From the NCBI GenBank assembly GCA_018262455.1, contig JAGSPR010000133.1:1-14363 (forward strand): 14,363 nt of DNA, read 5' to 3'. Shown here piece after piece: positions 3,793-12,815 of the stretch. Within the stretch, counting starts at the first letter, position 1, and each line of letters opens with the position of its first letter. The notes beneath the pieces are model-generated. The model made no database searches, was not told where the DNA came from, and worked only from the letters and a program-made list of their open reading frames with translations. The DNA comes from Deltaproteobacteria bacterium (GTDB taxonomy: Bacteria > Myxococcota > Polyangia > Haliangiales > Haliangiaceae). Position numbers and translations under genes: made by a program.

Positions 3793-4458
3793 CTAGGTCT
3801 GGATCTGGGGCTCGATCATCACCGGCGTGATCGACTGCTTCTCGACGGTGCGCTCCGCGCTGCCGACGGTCACCGTGACGCGGAGGGTGAACAGCTTGCC
3901 CTGGGCGTTCCACCGACCGTTCGAGATCGCGTTCCAGTCGGGCGAGCTGAGCGTGTAGCTCGTCGCGACCGTCTTGCCCGGCGCCATGGTCTCGTCCCAG
4001 GTGACGTAGTTGCCCTGGTCGTCCCAGCGGGACGGCTTGCGCGCGGTGAGCCGGCCGACGACCTTGCCGGCGGCGTCGACGAGCTCGACCTGCTTGACCT
4101 TGACGGTCATCGGGCCGGGGCCCGCGGTTGCGCGAAGCGACAGCTGCATCGAGGTCTGGTCGCACGCCGGATGGGTCGGACCCTGGCAGTTGCGCGGGTC
4201 GGCGCAGCCGCCCGCCGACGGTCCCTGCGTGGCCCCGGGGGCCGGCACCACCTGGTTCGCCGCGGCGCTCGCTGGCTTCGCGGGCCTCGCCGGTGGGGGG
4301 GCCGCATCGCCGCAATCGTCGGCGAGCGTGACGCCCGCGATCTCCACCGCGACGTCCATCGCCGCGGCCGGGTGCGGCTCCGGTCTGGGCGGCTCTGACC
4401 TCGGGACCTCGGTACAGGCTGCGAGCGTCAGCGCGATGACAGCGGTGTGTCTGGTCAT
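3793..4458 (-). CDS. Lipoprotein, paralogue A of a tandem pair
   Basis: The 221-residue protein starts at ATG 4458 (MTRHTAVIAL...) behind GAGG, six bases upstream. The longer in-frame extension lacks a signal peptide and was not used. A lipoprotein signal ends at LTLAAC (Cys15). It is followed by a Pro/Glu-rich stretch, a short VTLADDC motif (about 43-49), a Pro/Ala-rich linker with three more cysteines, and a conserved beta-rich domain from QTSMQLS onward. That domain includes KVKQVELVD, YVTWDE, SNGRWNAQGK and FTLRVTVTVGS. The conserved part closely parallels the upstream gene at 4499-5167, so the two arose by duplication. The fold looks like an immunoglobulin-like beta-sandwich, inferred from alternating hydrophobic strands only. 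It lies 40 bp behind its paralogue and is likely in the same operon. I do not recognise a characterised family; function unknown. Confidence 0.8.
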   Translation of the reverse strand: MTRHTAVIALTLAACTEVPRSEPPRPEPHPAAAMDVAVEIAGVTLADDCGDAAPPPARPAKPASAAANQVVPAPGATQGPSAGGCADPRNCQGPTHPACDQTSMQLSLRATAGPGPMTVKVKQVELVDAAGKVVGRLTARKPSRWDDQGNYVTWDETMAPGKTVATSYTLSSPDWNAISNGRWNAQGKLFTLRVTVTVGSAERTVEKQSITPVMIEPQIQT

Positions 4459-4498
4459 GTCCGTCCTCGGGGTTCCGGTCTCGACCTCGCGTGCCGGC

Positions 4499-5167
4499 TC
4501 ACGTCGGGACCGCGGGCGGGAGCCGTGCCGCGGTGATCGCTTGCTTGTCGACGGTGATGTCCCCGCTGCCCACCGTGACGGTGACCCGCAGCTGGAAAGT
4601 CCTCGCGTGGGCGTTCCACCGGCCATTCGTCAGCTTGTCCCAGCTCGGCGCGGTGAGCGCGTAGCTCGCCTTGACGGTCTGATCGGCGGCCAGCGCCTGA
4701 TCCCAGACGACGTACTTGCCATCCTGCGCCCACTGCGTCGGCTCGCGTGCCGTGAGGACCTCGAGGAGCTTGCCCTTGTCGTCGAGCAGCTCGACCTTCT
4801 TCACCTTGATCGTGGTCGGCTTCGCACCCGGCTCCGCCTTGATCGAGAGCTGCATCGAGGTCTGCTCGCAGTGCCGTCCGCAGCCGGTGCTCGCACACCG
4901 CGGGTCGGCCACGGAGACCGCCGCGGGCGTGCCAGGCCGCGCAGGATCCTGCGCGACCCGCGAGGGTGCGGCCGGCTGGCCCGGCGCGGGCTTGGCGGGC
5001 GGCGCCGGGGGCGCCGGGGGCGCCGGGGGCACCGGGGCGCAGTTGTCGGCGAGCGTGACCGACGACAGCTCGACGGTGACCTCCTTCATCCGCTTCGCTT
5101 CGCTGATCGAGCTGCATCCCGTCAGCGCGACCGCCGCGAGCACCCAGAGCACATCTCGTTTCGACAT
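4499..5167 (-). CDS. Lipoprotein, paralogue B with PPA-repeat linker
   Basis: The 222-residue protein starts at ATG 5167, preceded by a strong GAGGTG site. The 25 residues further upstream in frame are not signal-like and lie in the promoter. The lipobox is LTGC (Cys18) followed by SS. A VELSSVTLADNC motif leads into a (PPA)n linker, then a cysteine cluster (four non-lipobox Cys in all, as in the paralogue, which would allow two disulfides). The conserved domain has QTSMQLS, KVKKVELLD, YVVWDQ, TNGRWNAH and FQLRVTVTVGS. Compared with the downstream copy, the C-terminal domain is well conserved while the linker has diverged. It is predicted to be a periplasmic or surface lipoprotein; no enzyme motif is visible. 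A sigma70-type promoter lies upstream, so this gene probably leads the two-gene operon. Confidence 0.82.
   Translation of the reverse strand: MSKRDVLWVLAAVALTGCSSISEAKRMKEVTVELSSVTLADNCAPVPPAPPAPPAPPAKPAPGQPAAPSRVAQDPARPGTPAAVSVADPRCASTGCGRHCEQTSMQLSIKAEPGAKPTTIKVKKVELLDDKGKLLEVLTAREPTQWAQDGKYVVWDQALAADQTVKASYALTAPSWDKLTNGRWNAHARTFQLRVTVTVGSGDITVDKQAITAARLPPAVPT
5001..5036. repeat. Four tandem 9-bp units inside lipoprotein B linker
   Basis: GGCGCCGGG is present three times head to tail, then once as GGCACCGGG. On the coding (minus) strand it encodes the PPA repeats of the linker. The unit keeps the reading frame, so copy-number change would lengthen or shorten the spacer between lipid anchor and folded domain without a frameshift. 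Confidence 0.85.
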
Positions 5168-5191
5168 ATCACCTCGTGAAGGGTCAGCGCG

Positions 5192-5221
5192 ATCGTACCT
5201 GTCGGGCCGGTGCGCTGTCGA
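5192..5221 (-). promoter_or_regulatory. Sigma70-type promoter for the lipoprotein pair
   Basis: On the minus strand, TCGACA (5221-5216, five of six matches to TTGACA) is followed after 18 bp by TACGAT (5197-5192, a good -10). The predicted transcript start is near 5185, leaving a leader of about 18 nt that contains the GAGGTG ribosome site of the gene starting at 5167. Confidence 0.55.
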
Positions 5222-5273
5222 TGAAACGCCCCGGCGTTGCAACCGGTCTGTTGTCGCCCGCGCCTCGGCTGGC

Positions 5274-7064
5274 CTATTGCAGGCCGTCGAACGCCACGAC
5301 GCTGTCGCTGGTGAGGCCGGCGGCGTTCGCCTCGTCGGTGTCGATGTGCATGTCGAGCGTGTACTCGGGGTTCACCCGGACGATCACATCGCCCATCGTC
5401 ATCTCGCGGTCGCCCTCGACGCGGACCTTGATCATGGCCTTGTCCGACACGCCGTAGTCGCGGGCTTGCTCGGGGTTCATGTGGACGTGGCGGTGGGCGA
5501 GGATGACCCCGCCCGCGGTGGTGATCGTGCCCGCGGGGCCGCGCAGCGTGATCCCGGGCGTGCCGTCGAGCTTGCCGCTCTCGCGGAGGGGCGGCGTGAC
5601 CCCGAGCGCGAACGCGTCGGTGCGCGCGAGCTCGACCTGGGTCTGCTTGCGGAGCGGGGCGATGATCGCGACCGCGCGGAGCTCCCCCTTGGGACCGACC
5701 AGATCGACGGTCTCGCGAGTGACGTACTGCCCGGGCTGGGTGACCTCGCGCTTGCGGCTGAGCTCGTAGCCGGCGCCGAACAGCGCATCGCAGTCCCCGC
5801 GGCTGAGGTGGACGTGCCGGACGCTGACGCCGACCGGGATCGGCCGGGCGCGGACGCTGCGGATCGCGCCGGTGGGCCCGGAGACGCACCGCATCGCCTC
5901 GCGCGCGATCATGCGCTCCTCGTCGGTCCGGACGACCAGCACCTTCGTCGGCGATCGGTGGCGCGAGATCTCGATGATCCCGCCGCTGGCCGAGGCCTTG
6001 CGCGTGCGGTTCGCCTCCTCGTCGAGCGCGACCCCCATGTAGATCAGGCCATCGCAGACCTGGCTGCGGACGCGGACCGAGTTCTCGCCGATCCCGCCGG
6101 TGAACACGAGCGCATCCGCGCCGCCCATCACCGCGGCATAGGCGCCGACGTACTTGCGGATCCGATGGACGAACACCTCGATCGCGAGGCGCGCCCGCGG
6201 ATCGCCGGCATCGGCCGCGATCTCGATGTCGCGGAAGTCGGCCCCGACGCCCGACAGGCCCGCGAGCCCAGACTTGCGGTTGAGCAGCTGATCGATGTCG
6301 TCGAAGGTCATGCCGTCGCGCGCGAGGAGCAGCGGGATCGCGGGATCGAGATCGCCCGACCGCGTGCCCATCACCAGGCCCTCGAGCGGCGTCATCCCCA
6401 TCGACGTCTCGACGGAGATGCCCCCCTCGATCGCCGACATGCTGGCGCCGCCGCCGAGGTGGCAGGTGATGAGCTTGAGCCGCGATAGATCGGTCTGCAG
6501 GTGTTCCGCTGCCGACAGCGCCATGTACTGGTGGCTCGGCCCGTGGAACCCGTAGCGGCGCACGCCCTTCTGGAGATACAGCTCGTTCGGCACGGCATAG
6601 GTGTAGGCGTGCGGTGGCAGCTGGGCGTGGAACGCGGTGTCGAACACCGCGACGTGCGGGACCGCTGGAAACACCTGCTTCGCCGCGCGGATCCCGGCGA
6701 GGTTGACCGGGTTGTGGAGCGGCGCGTAGACCGCGCACTCGTCGATGATCGCCTCGACCTTGTCGTCGATCTTGATCGGGGCCACGAGGCGCTCTCCACC
6801 GTGGACCACGCGATGGCCGACCGCGCCGAGCGCCTTCGGATCGGGCATCGGCCCGCCGGCCCGGGTGAGGTGCGCGAGGATCGCACGCAGCGCGTCGGCC
6901 ACCGTGCGGCCCTCGATCGGCACGCTGGCGGTCTCGTGGAAGTGCTCCGCCGATGAGGTGCCCACGCGTTCGACCCGCCCGATCGCGAGCCGAGCCTCGG
7001 TGTCCATCTCGTAGAGGTTGTACTTGACCGAGGTGGAACCGACGTTGACGACGAGAACCTTCAT
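5274..7064 (-). CDS. Bifunctional acetate kinase - PduL-type phosphate acyltransferase fusion
   Basis: This 596-residue protein joins two enzymes. Residues 1 to about 392 are acetate kinase (acetyl-P + ADP to acetate + ATP). The visible motifs are NVGSTSVKY (7-15), GHRVVHGGE (83-91), FDTAFH (141-146), GFHGPSH (172-178), HLGGG (202-206), GTRSGDLDP with the catalytic-type Arg (233-241), FTGGIGEN (321-328) and RTDEE (379-383). After a short linker (about 393-407), residues 408-596 are a PduL-type phosphotransacetylase (acyl-CoA + Pi to acyl-P + CoA). Its motifs are PVGVSVRHVHLS (410-421), HRHVHM (524-529) and HIDTDEANAAGL (573-584), the His pairs being the known zinc ligands of PduL. Both parts look complete. 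The microcompartment-targeting N-terminus of classical PduL is absent, so I infer a cytosolic enzyme. The start is ATG 7064, which gives the canonical MKVLVVN; the GTG at 7088 would overlap the promoter. Confidence 0.93.
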   Translation of the reverse strand: MKVLVVNVGSTSVKYNLYEMDTEARLAIGRVERVGTSSAEHFHETASVPIEGRTVADALRAILAHLTRAGGPMPDPKALGAVGHRVVHGGERLVAPIKIDDKVEAIIDECAVYAPLHNPVNLAGIRAAKQVFPAVPHVAVFDTAFHAQLPPHAYTYAVPNELYLQKGVRRYGFHGPSHQYMALSAAEHLQTDLSRLKLITCHLGGGASMSAIEGGISVETSMGMTPLEGLVMGTRSGDLDPAIPLLLARDGMTFDDIDQLLNRKSGLAGLSGVGADFRDIEIAADAGDPRARLAIEVFVHRIRKYVGAYAAVMGGADALVFTGGIGENSVRVRSQVCDGLIYMGVALDEEANRTRKASASGGIIEISRHRSPTKVLVVRTDEERMIAREAMRCVSGPTGAIRSVRARPIPVGVSVRHVHLSRGDCDALFGAGYELSRKREVTQPGQYVTRETVDLVGPKGELRAVAIIAPLRKQTQVELARTDAFALGVTPPLRESGKLDGTPGITLRGPAGTITTAGGVILAHRHVHMNPEQARDYGVSDKAMIKVRVEGDREMTMGDVIVRVNPEYTLDMHIDTDEANAAGLTSDSVVAFDGLQ

Positions 7065-7078: not shown

Positions 7079-7093
7079 GCGCGCCCACTCGCG

Positions 7094-10652: not shown

Positions 10653-12815
10653 GTGAACATCGCCTTCTTCGGGTCGAGCCTGGTCTCCGCGTACTGGAAC
10701 GGTGCCGCGACCTACTACCGCGGCATCGTGCGCGCCCTCGCAGAACGCGGCCACGTGGTCACCTTCTTCGAGCCCGACGCGTACGAGCGCCAGCAGCATC
10801 GCGATCTCGGCGACCCGGGGTGGGTGAAGGTCGTGGTCTATCCGCCTGAGATCGAGGCCGTCCATCGGATGATCGAGCGTGCGCGCGGTGCGGATCTCGT
10901 CATCAAGGCGAGCGGGGTCGGCGTCCACGACGAGCTCCTCGAGCAGGCGGTGCTCGAGCTCGAGGGGCCGCGGACGCTGGTCGCGTTCTGGGACGTCGAT
11001 GCACCCGCGACCCTCGACCGGATCGAGCGCGACCCCGGCGATCCGTTCCGCGCGTTGATCCCGCGCTACGACCTCGTGTTGACGTACGGAGGAGGCGCCG
11101 CGGTGGTCGACGCGTACGAGCGACTCGGCGCCAGGAGCTGCGTGCCGATCTACAACGCGCTCGATCCCACCACGCATCATGAGGTCTCGCCGGATCCACG
11201 CTTCGCGGGCTCGCTCGGCTTCCTCGGCAACCGCCTGCCGGATCGAGAGAGCCGGGTCGACGAGTTCTTCCTGCGCGCCGCGACCTGCCTGCCGGACCAC
11301 CGGTTCCTGCTCGGGGGCTCCGGCTGGGTCGACAAGCCGATCCCCGCGAACGTCCGTCACCTCGGGCACGTCTACACCCGCGATCACAACGCCTTCAACG
11401 TGACCCCGACCGCGGTGCTCAACATCAGCCGCGGCTCGATGGCGGCCTACGGCTTCTCGCCGGCGACGCGGGTGTTCGAGGCCGCGGGCGCGGGCGCGTG
11501 CCTGATCACGGATGCCTGGTGCGGGCTCGAGCAGTTTCTAGATCCTGGCACCGAGGTGCTCGCCGCGCGCAACGGCGACGAGGTCGTCGAGCATGTGGCG
11601 ACGCTCACCCCGGCGAAGGCACGCGAGATCGGACAGCGCGCCAAGGCTCGGATGCTCGCGCACCACACCTATGCCCACCGCGCGATCGACCTCGAGGCCG
11701 CGCTGTGCGACCGCGTGCGCGCGAACGGCAGATCATCGGGAGAGATCCGGAGACCCGACGGCATGCGGATCGTGTTCCTGGGCCTGTCGATCACGTCGTC
11801 GTGGGGCAACGGCCATGCGACGACCTATCGCGGCCTCGTCCGCGAGCTGTGCGAGCGCGGCCACGACGTCCTGTTCCTCGAGCGCGACGTGCCGTGGCAC
11901 GCCGCGAACCGCGATCTCGAGCAGCCGCCCTACGCGCGCACCGCGCTGTATGCCAGCGTCCGGGAGTTGCAGGTGCGCTACGGCTCGATGGTCAGCGATG
12001 CCGATCTCGTGGTGGTCGGATCCTGCGTGCCTGATGGTGTGGAGATCGGACGGTGGGTCGTCGAGACCGCGCGCGGCGTCACGGCGTTCTATGACATCGA
12101 TACGCCGGTCACGCTGGCACGCCTCGCGGCCGGCGAGTGCTCGTACCTCGAGCGCGAGCTGATCCCACGCTACGCGATGTACCTGTCGTTCACCGGAGGC
12201 CCCACCCTGGCGAGGCTCGAGCGCGAGTTCGGCTCGCCGCGGGCGCTGCCGCTGTACTGCTCGGTCGATCCCGCACTCTACGGGCCCGAACGCCGCCCGA
12301 GCCGATGGGACCTCGGGTACATGGGTACCTACAGCGCCGACCGTCAGCCGGCAGTGGATCGCCTGCTGATCGATGCCGCTCGCGGCGATCCCGAGCGCAG
12401 GTTCGTGGTCGCCGGCCCTCAGTACCCCGCCACGATCCCGTGGCCCGACAACGTCGACCGGATCGAGCACCTCGCGCCCGACGCGCATCGCAGGTTCTAC
12501 AACGAGATGGCGTTCACGCTGAACGTCACGCGGACCGACATGGTCGCCGCCGGGTGGTCTCCGAGTGTCCGGCTGTTCGAGGCGGCCGCGTGCGGCGTAC
12601 CGATCATCAGCGACCGATGGGAAGGGCTCGACGAGCTGTTCGAGCCCGACAGCGAGATCCTGATCGCGCACTCGACCGAGGACGTGCTCCGGCACATGCG
12701 CGACCTGACCGAGAACGAGCGCCGCGCGGTGGGCGCGCGCGCCTGTGCGCGAGTCCGCGCCTCCCACACCGCCGCCCATCGAGCCGCCGACCTCGAGCGC
12801 TACGCCCGAAGTTGA
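10653..12815 (+). CDS. Tandem two-domain CgeB-like glycosyltransferase
   Basis: The 720-residue protein contains two homologous GT-B glycosyltransferase units of the CgeB (DUF3880/Glyco_trans_1_2) kind: residues 1 to about 351 and 371-720, joined by a polar linker. Matching landmarks include the opening IAFFGSSL / IVFLGLSI, the TYYRGIVRALAERGH / TYRGLVRELCERGH helix (20-34 / 390-404), WDVDAP / YDIDTP (113-118 / 480-485), LIPRY (135-139 / 503-507), and the donor-site segment SPATRVFEAAGAG / SPSVRLFEAAACG (269-281 / 636-648). The ending HTYAHRAIDLE / HTAAHRAADLE also matches. Both halves keep the FEAA...G donor signature, so both may be active. There is no signal or membrane segment, so it should be cytosolic and use NDP-sugars. 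The start is GTG 10653 with AAGGAG five bases upstream. An in-frame ATG at 11763, ten bases after GGAG, could also start the second domain alone. Confidence 0.85.
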   Translation: MNIAFFGSSLVSAYWNGAATYYRGIVRALAERGHVVTFFEPDAYERQQHRDLGDPGWVKVVVYPPEIEAVHRMIERARGADLVIKASGVGVHDELLEQAVLELEGPRTLVAFWDVDAPATLDRIERDPGDPFRALIPRYDLVLTYGGGAAVVDAYERLGARSCVPIYNALDPTTHHEVSPDPRFAGSLGFLGNRLPDRESRVDEFFLRAATCLPDHRFLLGGSGWVDKPIPANVRHLGHVYTRDHNAFNVTPTAVLNISRGSMAAYGFSPATRVFEAAGAGACLITDAWCGLEQFLDPGTEVLAARNGDEVVEHVATLTPAKAREIGQRAKARMLAHHTYAHRAIDLEAALCDRVRANGRSSGEIRRPDGMRIVFLGLSITSSWGNGHATTYRGLVRELCERGHDVLFLERDVPWHAANRDLEQPPYARTALYASVRELQVRYGSMVSDADLVVVGSCVPDGVEIGRWVVETARGVTAFYDIDTPVTLARLAAGECSYLERELIPRYAMYLSFTGGPTLARLEREFGSPRALPLYCSVDPALYGPERRPSRWDLGYMGTYSADRQPAVDRLLIDAARGDPERRFVVAGPQYPATIPWPDNVDRIEHLAPDAHRRFYNEMAFTLNVTRTDMVAAGWSPSVRLFEAAACGVPIISDRWEGLDELFEPDSEILIAHSTEDVLRHMRDLTENERRAVGARACARVRASHTAAHRAADLERYARS

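Follow-up and report, generated by a model that had tools for sequence, protein, structure and literature searches.

The locus described here raises the question of whether an acetate kinase and a PduL-type phosphotransacylase encoded in one reading frame form a single bifunctional enzyme, and whether such an enzyme would pass acetyl phosphate directly between its two sites. Acetyl phosphate is an ATP source as well as a donor for signaling and protein acetylation, and a single chain that both produces and consumes it lends itself to the question of whether the free pool is reduced by fusion. The window, meaning the whole stretch of DNA analyzed, comprised 14,363 nucleotides (contig JAGSPR010000133.1 of GCA_018262455.1, Deltaproteobacteria bacterium).

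Reading frame, domains, and the joint

The gene was found on the minus strand as an ORF of 596 residues without an internal stop, running from an ATG at 7064 to a stop codon at 5274-5276. The mechanical ORF list also offered a GTG start at 7088, eight codons upstream; the ATG was the first aligned position in an alignment of 10 fusions. The main features were as follows:

5274..7064, minus strand: coding sequence of the acetate kinase-PduL fusion, 596 amino acids, stop codon included; homologues carry both domains
5901..7061, minus strand: acetate kinase domain, residues 2-388, from Pfam and a Foldseek match to 1g99 (TMt 0.94)
5844..5879, minus strand: linker GPTGAIRSVRAR, residues 396-407, with bounds set by the HMM envelopes
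5277..5843, minus strand: PduL-type phosphotransacylase part, residues 408-596 (Pfam PTAC at 410-584), from a Foldseek match to 5cuo

The match to Pfam Acetate_kinase (PF00871, residues 2-388) spanned the whole model and scored 429.9 bits against a curated cut-off of 22, and that to PTAC (PF06130, residues 410-584) scored 241.3 bits against 25. The NCBIfam models for the acetate/propionate kinase family (TIGR00016; 418.9 bits, cut-off 293.4) and for phosphate propanoyltransferase (249.1 bits, cut-off 209) were passed as well. The preliminary description had placed an acetate kinase and PduL on one chain and had named the partner as PduL and not Pta; both points were confirmed by the single ORF and by the scores of its two domains, which lie far above the cut-offs in Pfam and NCBIfam.

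Both domains were present in 120 of the 120 homologues listed (the best 120 of 7998 scored), which shared 72-91% identity with the query at a coverage of 100% in 119 cases and 89% in one; the source names among them included Kofleriaceae, Myxococcota, Sandaracinus, and Pyxidicoccus. A search for the same architecture in other genomes, as the preliminary description had advised, yielded 60 distinct fused ORFs over all loci, the window included, with the kinase first in 60 of 60 and with linkers of 8-17 residues (median 12). In the profile search of genome contigs, the 80 loci among the matches listed had both domains in one frame in at least 14 cases, and in two of these (L014 and L016) the ORF ran to the contig end. 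The kinase was followed by pduL as an adjoining gene at L010, pduL was followed by the kinase at L037 and L047, and PduL was not seen at 63 of the 80 kinase loci.

A joining of two genes by an assembly error or by chance read-through has nothing in its favor in the window itself; separate adjacent genes do exist elsewhere, at the three loci just named. The same joint recurs throughout the 120 listed homologues and the 60 distinct fused ORFs, and thus it is not an assembly artefact. With the joint found in independent contigs, an error at the junction, a concern of the preliminary description, was ruled out, and read-through or misassembly as an explanation is left with a practically negligible probability.

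Distribution, history, and genome context

The fused loci belong to phyla that we take to be Myxococcota, Bacteroidota, Nitrospirota, Pseudomonadota, Chloroflexota, and Spirochaetota. When genomes were sampled by phylum, PF06130 was present in 38 of the 195 from Myxococcota, 31 of which carried it in a fusion with the kinase. In samples of five other phyla, each centered on a fusion carrier that was counted in, the fusion was found in 5 of 148 Nitrospirota genomes (PF06130 in 5), 4 of 198 Spirochaetota (PF06130 in 29), 4 of 349 Pseudomonadota (PF06130 in 5), 2 of 345 Bacteroidota (PF06130 in 5), and 1 of 251 Chloroflexota genomes (PF06130 over the cut-off in 1). For 249 Bacillota genomes centered on that of L037, PF06130 was present in 148, and no PF06130 frame longer than 347 residues occurred among the matches listed.

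In the sample taken for the phylum to which the Spirochaetes MAG L016 belongs, PduL followed approximately 250 other residues at four loci (L183, L186, L188, and L191). The two that were scanned (L183 and L188) had a Pfam ComFB domain ahead of PduL, which may connect a regulatory domain with the phosphotransacylase; a literature search for ComFB paired with PduL found no paper in the collection searched.

All PduL and kinase trees were quick trees, on which the fused label changed four times (PduL) and three times (kinase). A strict single clade of the fused PduL rows was rejected (p-AU 0.0005) because the unfused L107, L173, L178, and L179 nest inside it. One clade of the fused PduLs together with these four, a group that was picked after the tree had been seen and that left L211 outside, was not rejected (p-AU 0.784), nor was one clade of the fused kinase rows (p-AU 0.146). 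The unfused and long-branched L211 joined the window's clade on the free PduL tree (SH-aLRT 95), and the unfused kinase L048 fell among the fused rows on the kinase tree. The history that fits these trees best would be one fusion origin, partial spread by transfer, and later loss of the kinase.

In the Nitrospirota sample, the unfused PduL of L173, L178, and L179 followed approximately 150 residues in place of the kinase, which gave no Pfam match in L173, the one scanned; the genomes of all three also keep an Ack-PduL fusion. At L107, the PduL followed approximately 180 other residues without a Pfam match, and no kinase domain was found; this arrangement may be real or may come from a chimeric contig.

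The window's clade was represented by 11 genomes, of which ten were on the trees (G001, G030, G116, G117, G119, G120, G129, G149, G155, and G163); the row of the eleventh, G144 (L105), was dropped from the trees as a near-copy. Eight of the 11 genomes had no PF00871 match other than the fusion, and a second acetate kinase was found in G129, G144, and G149. PF01515 (Pta) had no match in 8 of the 11; in G001 it matched a malic enzyme that has a PTA domain, in G155 it gave a weak match that proved to be PlsX, and in G163 it matched a fragment of 73 residues within a frame of 375, possibly what is left of a Pta. A full-length stand-alone Pta was recognized in none of the 11 genomes, and this absence is provisional, as genome completeness was not stated. 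The sole PF00871 match in 8 of 11 genomes and the lack of a recognized full-length Pta make the fusion plausibly the acetate kinase-phosphotransacetylase route of the clade, and it may be the only one there. Among the 31 fused Myxococcota genomes, a PF01515 match was present in 19; in G086, G088, and G180, the matches included a strong one close to a second acetate kinase, and thus, outside the window's clade, the fusion coexists with a probable ordinary pair.

Shared neighbors were sought at 15 loci (14 fused and L010) and gave no cluster beyond the gene itself; the only others were two pairs formed by the gene or by shadow frames, in a comparison of mechanically chosen longest ORFs, a choice by which true genes in GC-rich DNA can be overlooked. 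For 12 loci of the window's clade, some of them cut by short contigs, clusters of at least three loci held the gene and shadow frames only, and sharing outside the gene was confined to pairs of loci. As no neighbor was common to more than two loci, there was no operon hint at a pathway.

Active sites of the two halves

The PduL half matched the CoA-bound PduL structure 5cuo in Foldseek (TMt 0.97 and 0.96, rmsd 0.7). Compared with this Rhodopseudomonas palustris enzyme (5cuo/5cup), it has the same fold at 50% identity (Foldseek) and the same ligands for two zinc ions; the R. palustris PduL is stand-alone and microcompartment-associated, whereas that of the window is fused behind a kinase. Alignment to 5cuo placed the zinc ligands (rPduL numbering in brackets) as follows:

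5808..5816, minus strand: H417 and H419 (H48 and H50)
5631..5633, minus strand: E478 (E109)
5481..5489, minus strand: H526 and H528 (H157 and H159)
5346..5348, minus strand: H573 (H204)

R472, S496, R563, Q476, Q443, and Q446 of the window corresponded to R103, S127, R194, Q107, Q74, and Q77 of rPduL. The roles of the zinc ligands and the other named residues are those given in the available text of PMC4784909. Every PduL examined, 58 fused and 70 stand-alone, retained the six zinc ligands. The PduL motif set was therefore complete in the window, with six of six zinc ligands and the other named sites present, as had been described. The N-terminal encapsulation peptide, which is restricted to microcompartment members and marks microcompartment targeting, not the PduL family, was absent, because the 12-residue linker ahead of PduL leaves no room for it; the preliminary description was also right in seeing no targeting segment.

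The kinase half shared the fold of Methanosarcina thermophila acetate kinase (1g99/1tuu; 47% identity in Foldseek) and its catalytic residues, and differed in having Gly for Asn211 and a PduL domain after the C-terminus. In the alignment to 1tuu, N7, R85, H117, D142, H174, R235, and E382 of the window matched N7, R91, H123, D148, H180, R241, and E384, the catalytic set of the M. thermophila enzyme. The equivalents of G239 and G331 were present, and the ADENOSINE and LOOP3 glycines were intact. The exception was found by alignment to the M. thermophila kinase at the following position:

6450..6452, minus strand: codon of Gly205, in the place of PHOSPHATE2 Asn211

The earlier claim of full motif sets in both halves thus held for the zinc ligands and for the other kinase residues checked, but not for PHOSPHATE2.

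Asn occupied the 211 site in 33 of 59 fused kinases and in 64 of 68 stand-alone kinases, so that another residue was found in 26 and 4, respectively; the stand-alone set was drawn from the matches listed and is weighted toward relatives of the query. On the tree, seven changes at this site were inferred among the fused rows and three among the stand-alone rows. Within the window's clade, the residue was Gly in 10 of the 11 rows on the tree, the window included, and Ser in the remaining one, L091. According to the available text on the M. thermophila variants (PMC4390882), N211A lowered the specific activity approximately 6-fold, with approximately 16% kept, and increased the acetate Km from 14.3 mM to 165 mM; N211S and N211T were worse than N211A, and the variants described there do not include Gly.

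Five related Myxococcota fusions (L082, L084, L088, L089, and L101) lacked the equivalent of H180 and, in addition, that of H123 or R91 in their kinase halves, with the PduL zinc ligands retained; thus, the architecture alone is no guarantee of a working kinase. Each of these five genomes has a second PduL that is not fused to a kinase. In three other fused kinases (L114, L117, and L126), the ADENOSINE Gly331 site held Asp and the Asn211 site held Ile, and nucleotide use may be different in these.

These results bear on whether the kinase half of the window is impaired or biased, so that the protein would be mainly a phosphotransacylase or would work in the acetate-forming direction only. The Gly at the Asn211 site, the excess of other residues and of changes at this site in fused kinases, and the loss of catalytic residues in five fused relatives favor such a reading. 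They are offset by the intact state of all the other catalytic and nucleotide-site residues checked in the window, by the activity kept in the Methanosarcina N211A variant in the available text of PMC4390882, by the standing of the fusion as the sole acetate kinase in most genomes of the clade, and by the bias of the stand-alone set toward relatives of the query. On balance, an impaired or biased kinase appears quite improbable.

Proposed function and channeling

A working bifunctional enzyme is supported by two domains far over their cut-offs, conserved active-site residues, matching folds, and wide single-chain conservation. The protein is very probably an enzyme of the acetate kinase-phosphotransacetylase route that converts acetyl-CoA to acetate with formation of ATP. 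The C-terminal PduL half would use phosphate and acetyl-CoA (perhaps also propionyl-CoA) to form acyl phosphate at its two-zinc site, with release of CoA, and the N-terminal kinase half would transfer the phosphoryl group to ADP to give acetate and ATP. The pair should be reversible in principle; we infer both activities, the substrate, and the direction in the cell from the sequence comparisons. The fusion probably takes the place of a separate Pta in the window's clade. Counted against the bifunctional reading were the Gly at Asn211, the five related fusions without kinase residues, the second acetate kinase in 3 of the 11 clade genomes, and the G163 fragment.

A related route is described in the accessible part of a study of Moorella thermoacetica (PMC10823632), where PduL-type phosphotransacetylases and acetate kinase form acetate, as proposed for the window; the Moorella proteins are separate, whereas those of the window are one chain. 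In the available sections of Erbilgin et al. 2016 (PMC4784909), the PduL signature is noted in multidomain proteins, most of which carry an acetate kinase annotation, and channeling is proposed. Those fusions resemble that of the window in having both domains on one chain and no encapsulation peptide; the fusion section, as available, is without sequences, distribution, or an active-site survey, unlike the present analysis. A literature search for PF06130 paired with PF00871 found no paper in the collection searched. The architecture is thus real, widespread, and already in print since 2016 (PMC4784909, as far as available), together with the channeling idea; the present analysis adds the distribution, the active-site detail, and the test cases.

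Joining of an acyl kinase to a transacylase was also seen in another form. Eight Myxococcota genomes that hold an Ack-PduL fusion had nine single-frame ORFs combining a butyrate-kinase-like domain with PTA_PTB, a transacylase unrelated to PduL. The kinase was first in L238, L240-L244, and L252, with a phosphotransbutyrylase-like transferase, and the transferase was first in L237 and L239, where it was nearer phosphotransacetylase. Six of the nine scored above the butyrate kinase subfamily cut-off, and none of the nine reached the cut-off of the phosphotransbutyrylase model or that of the phosphotransacetylase model. These ORFs suggest that acyl kinases have been joined to transacylases repeatedly. 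A broader scenario is speculative and unlikely as a whole: such joining would have been favored repeatedly in Myxococcota (Ack-PduL, butyrate-kinase-like-PTA_PTB, and the reverse order) as a way of confining the reactive acyl phosphate, with later drift of the fused acetate kinases at the nucleotide site toward one-way work forming acetate and ATP.

For the geometry of the two halves, an AlphaFold monomer model from an alignment of 121 sequences had a mean pLDDT of 94.5 and a pTM of 0.69, with pLDDT below 50 at residues 400-405 only, inside the linker; an alignment of 10 close sequences gave a poor model (pLDDT 53.6). The low linker pLDDT and the pTM, set against the high mean pLDDT, mean that the relative placement of the domains was not firmly predicted. 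None of the best 50 of 1426 Foldseek matches was a chain spanning both halves, and the longest had at most 453 residues. The model suggests a pair of rigid enzymes held by a short tether, with no sign of a rigid channel.

True channeling of acetyl phosphate between the sites, which would keep it from the signaling and acetylation pool, has been put forward in print for Ack-PduL fusions in the available text of PMC4784909. It also draws on the short linkers, which measure 8-17 residues in every one of the 60 fused ORFs, and on the butyrate-kinase-like/PTA_PTB fusions, whose occurrence in both orders in related genomes indicates that kinase-transacylase joining is apparently favored. The loosely predicted domain placement speaks against it, as do linkers that differ in length and sequence between lineages across the 60 fused ORFs and a structure model that is a monomer. 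We consider channeling unlikely; most likely, the joint gives fixed 1:1 production and closeness of two enzymes, not a built tunnel.

Two further regions of the window were recorded. Two adjoining ORFs at 3793-5242 on the minus strand, without a Pfam match, were alike by eye and are perhaps paralogous secreted proteins or lipoproteins. A 720-residue ORF at 10653-12815 on the plus strand contained two Glyco_trans_1_2 stretches, apparently a tandem duplication judged from these repeated matches.
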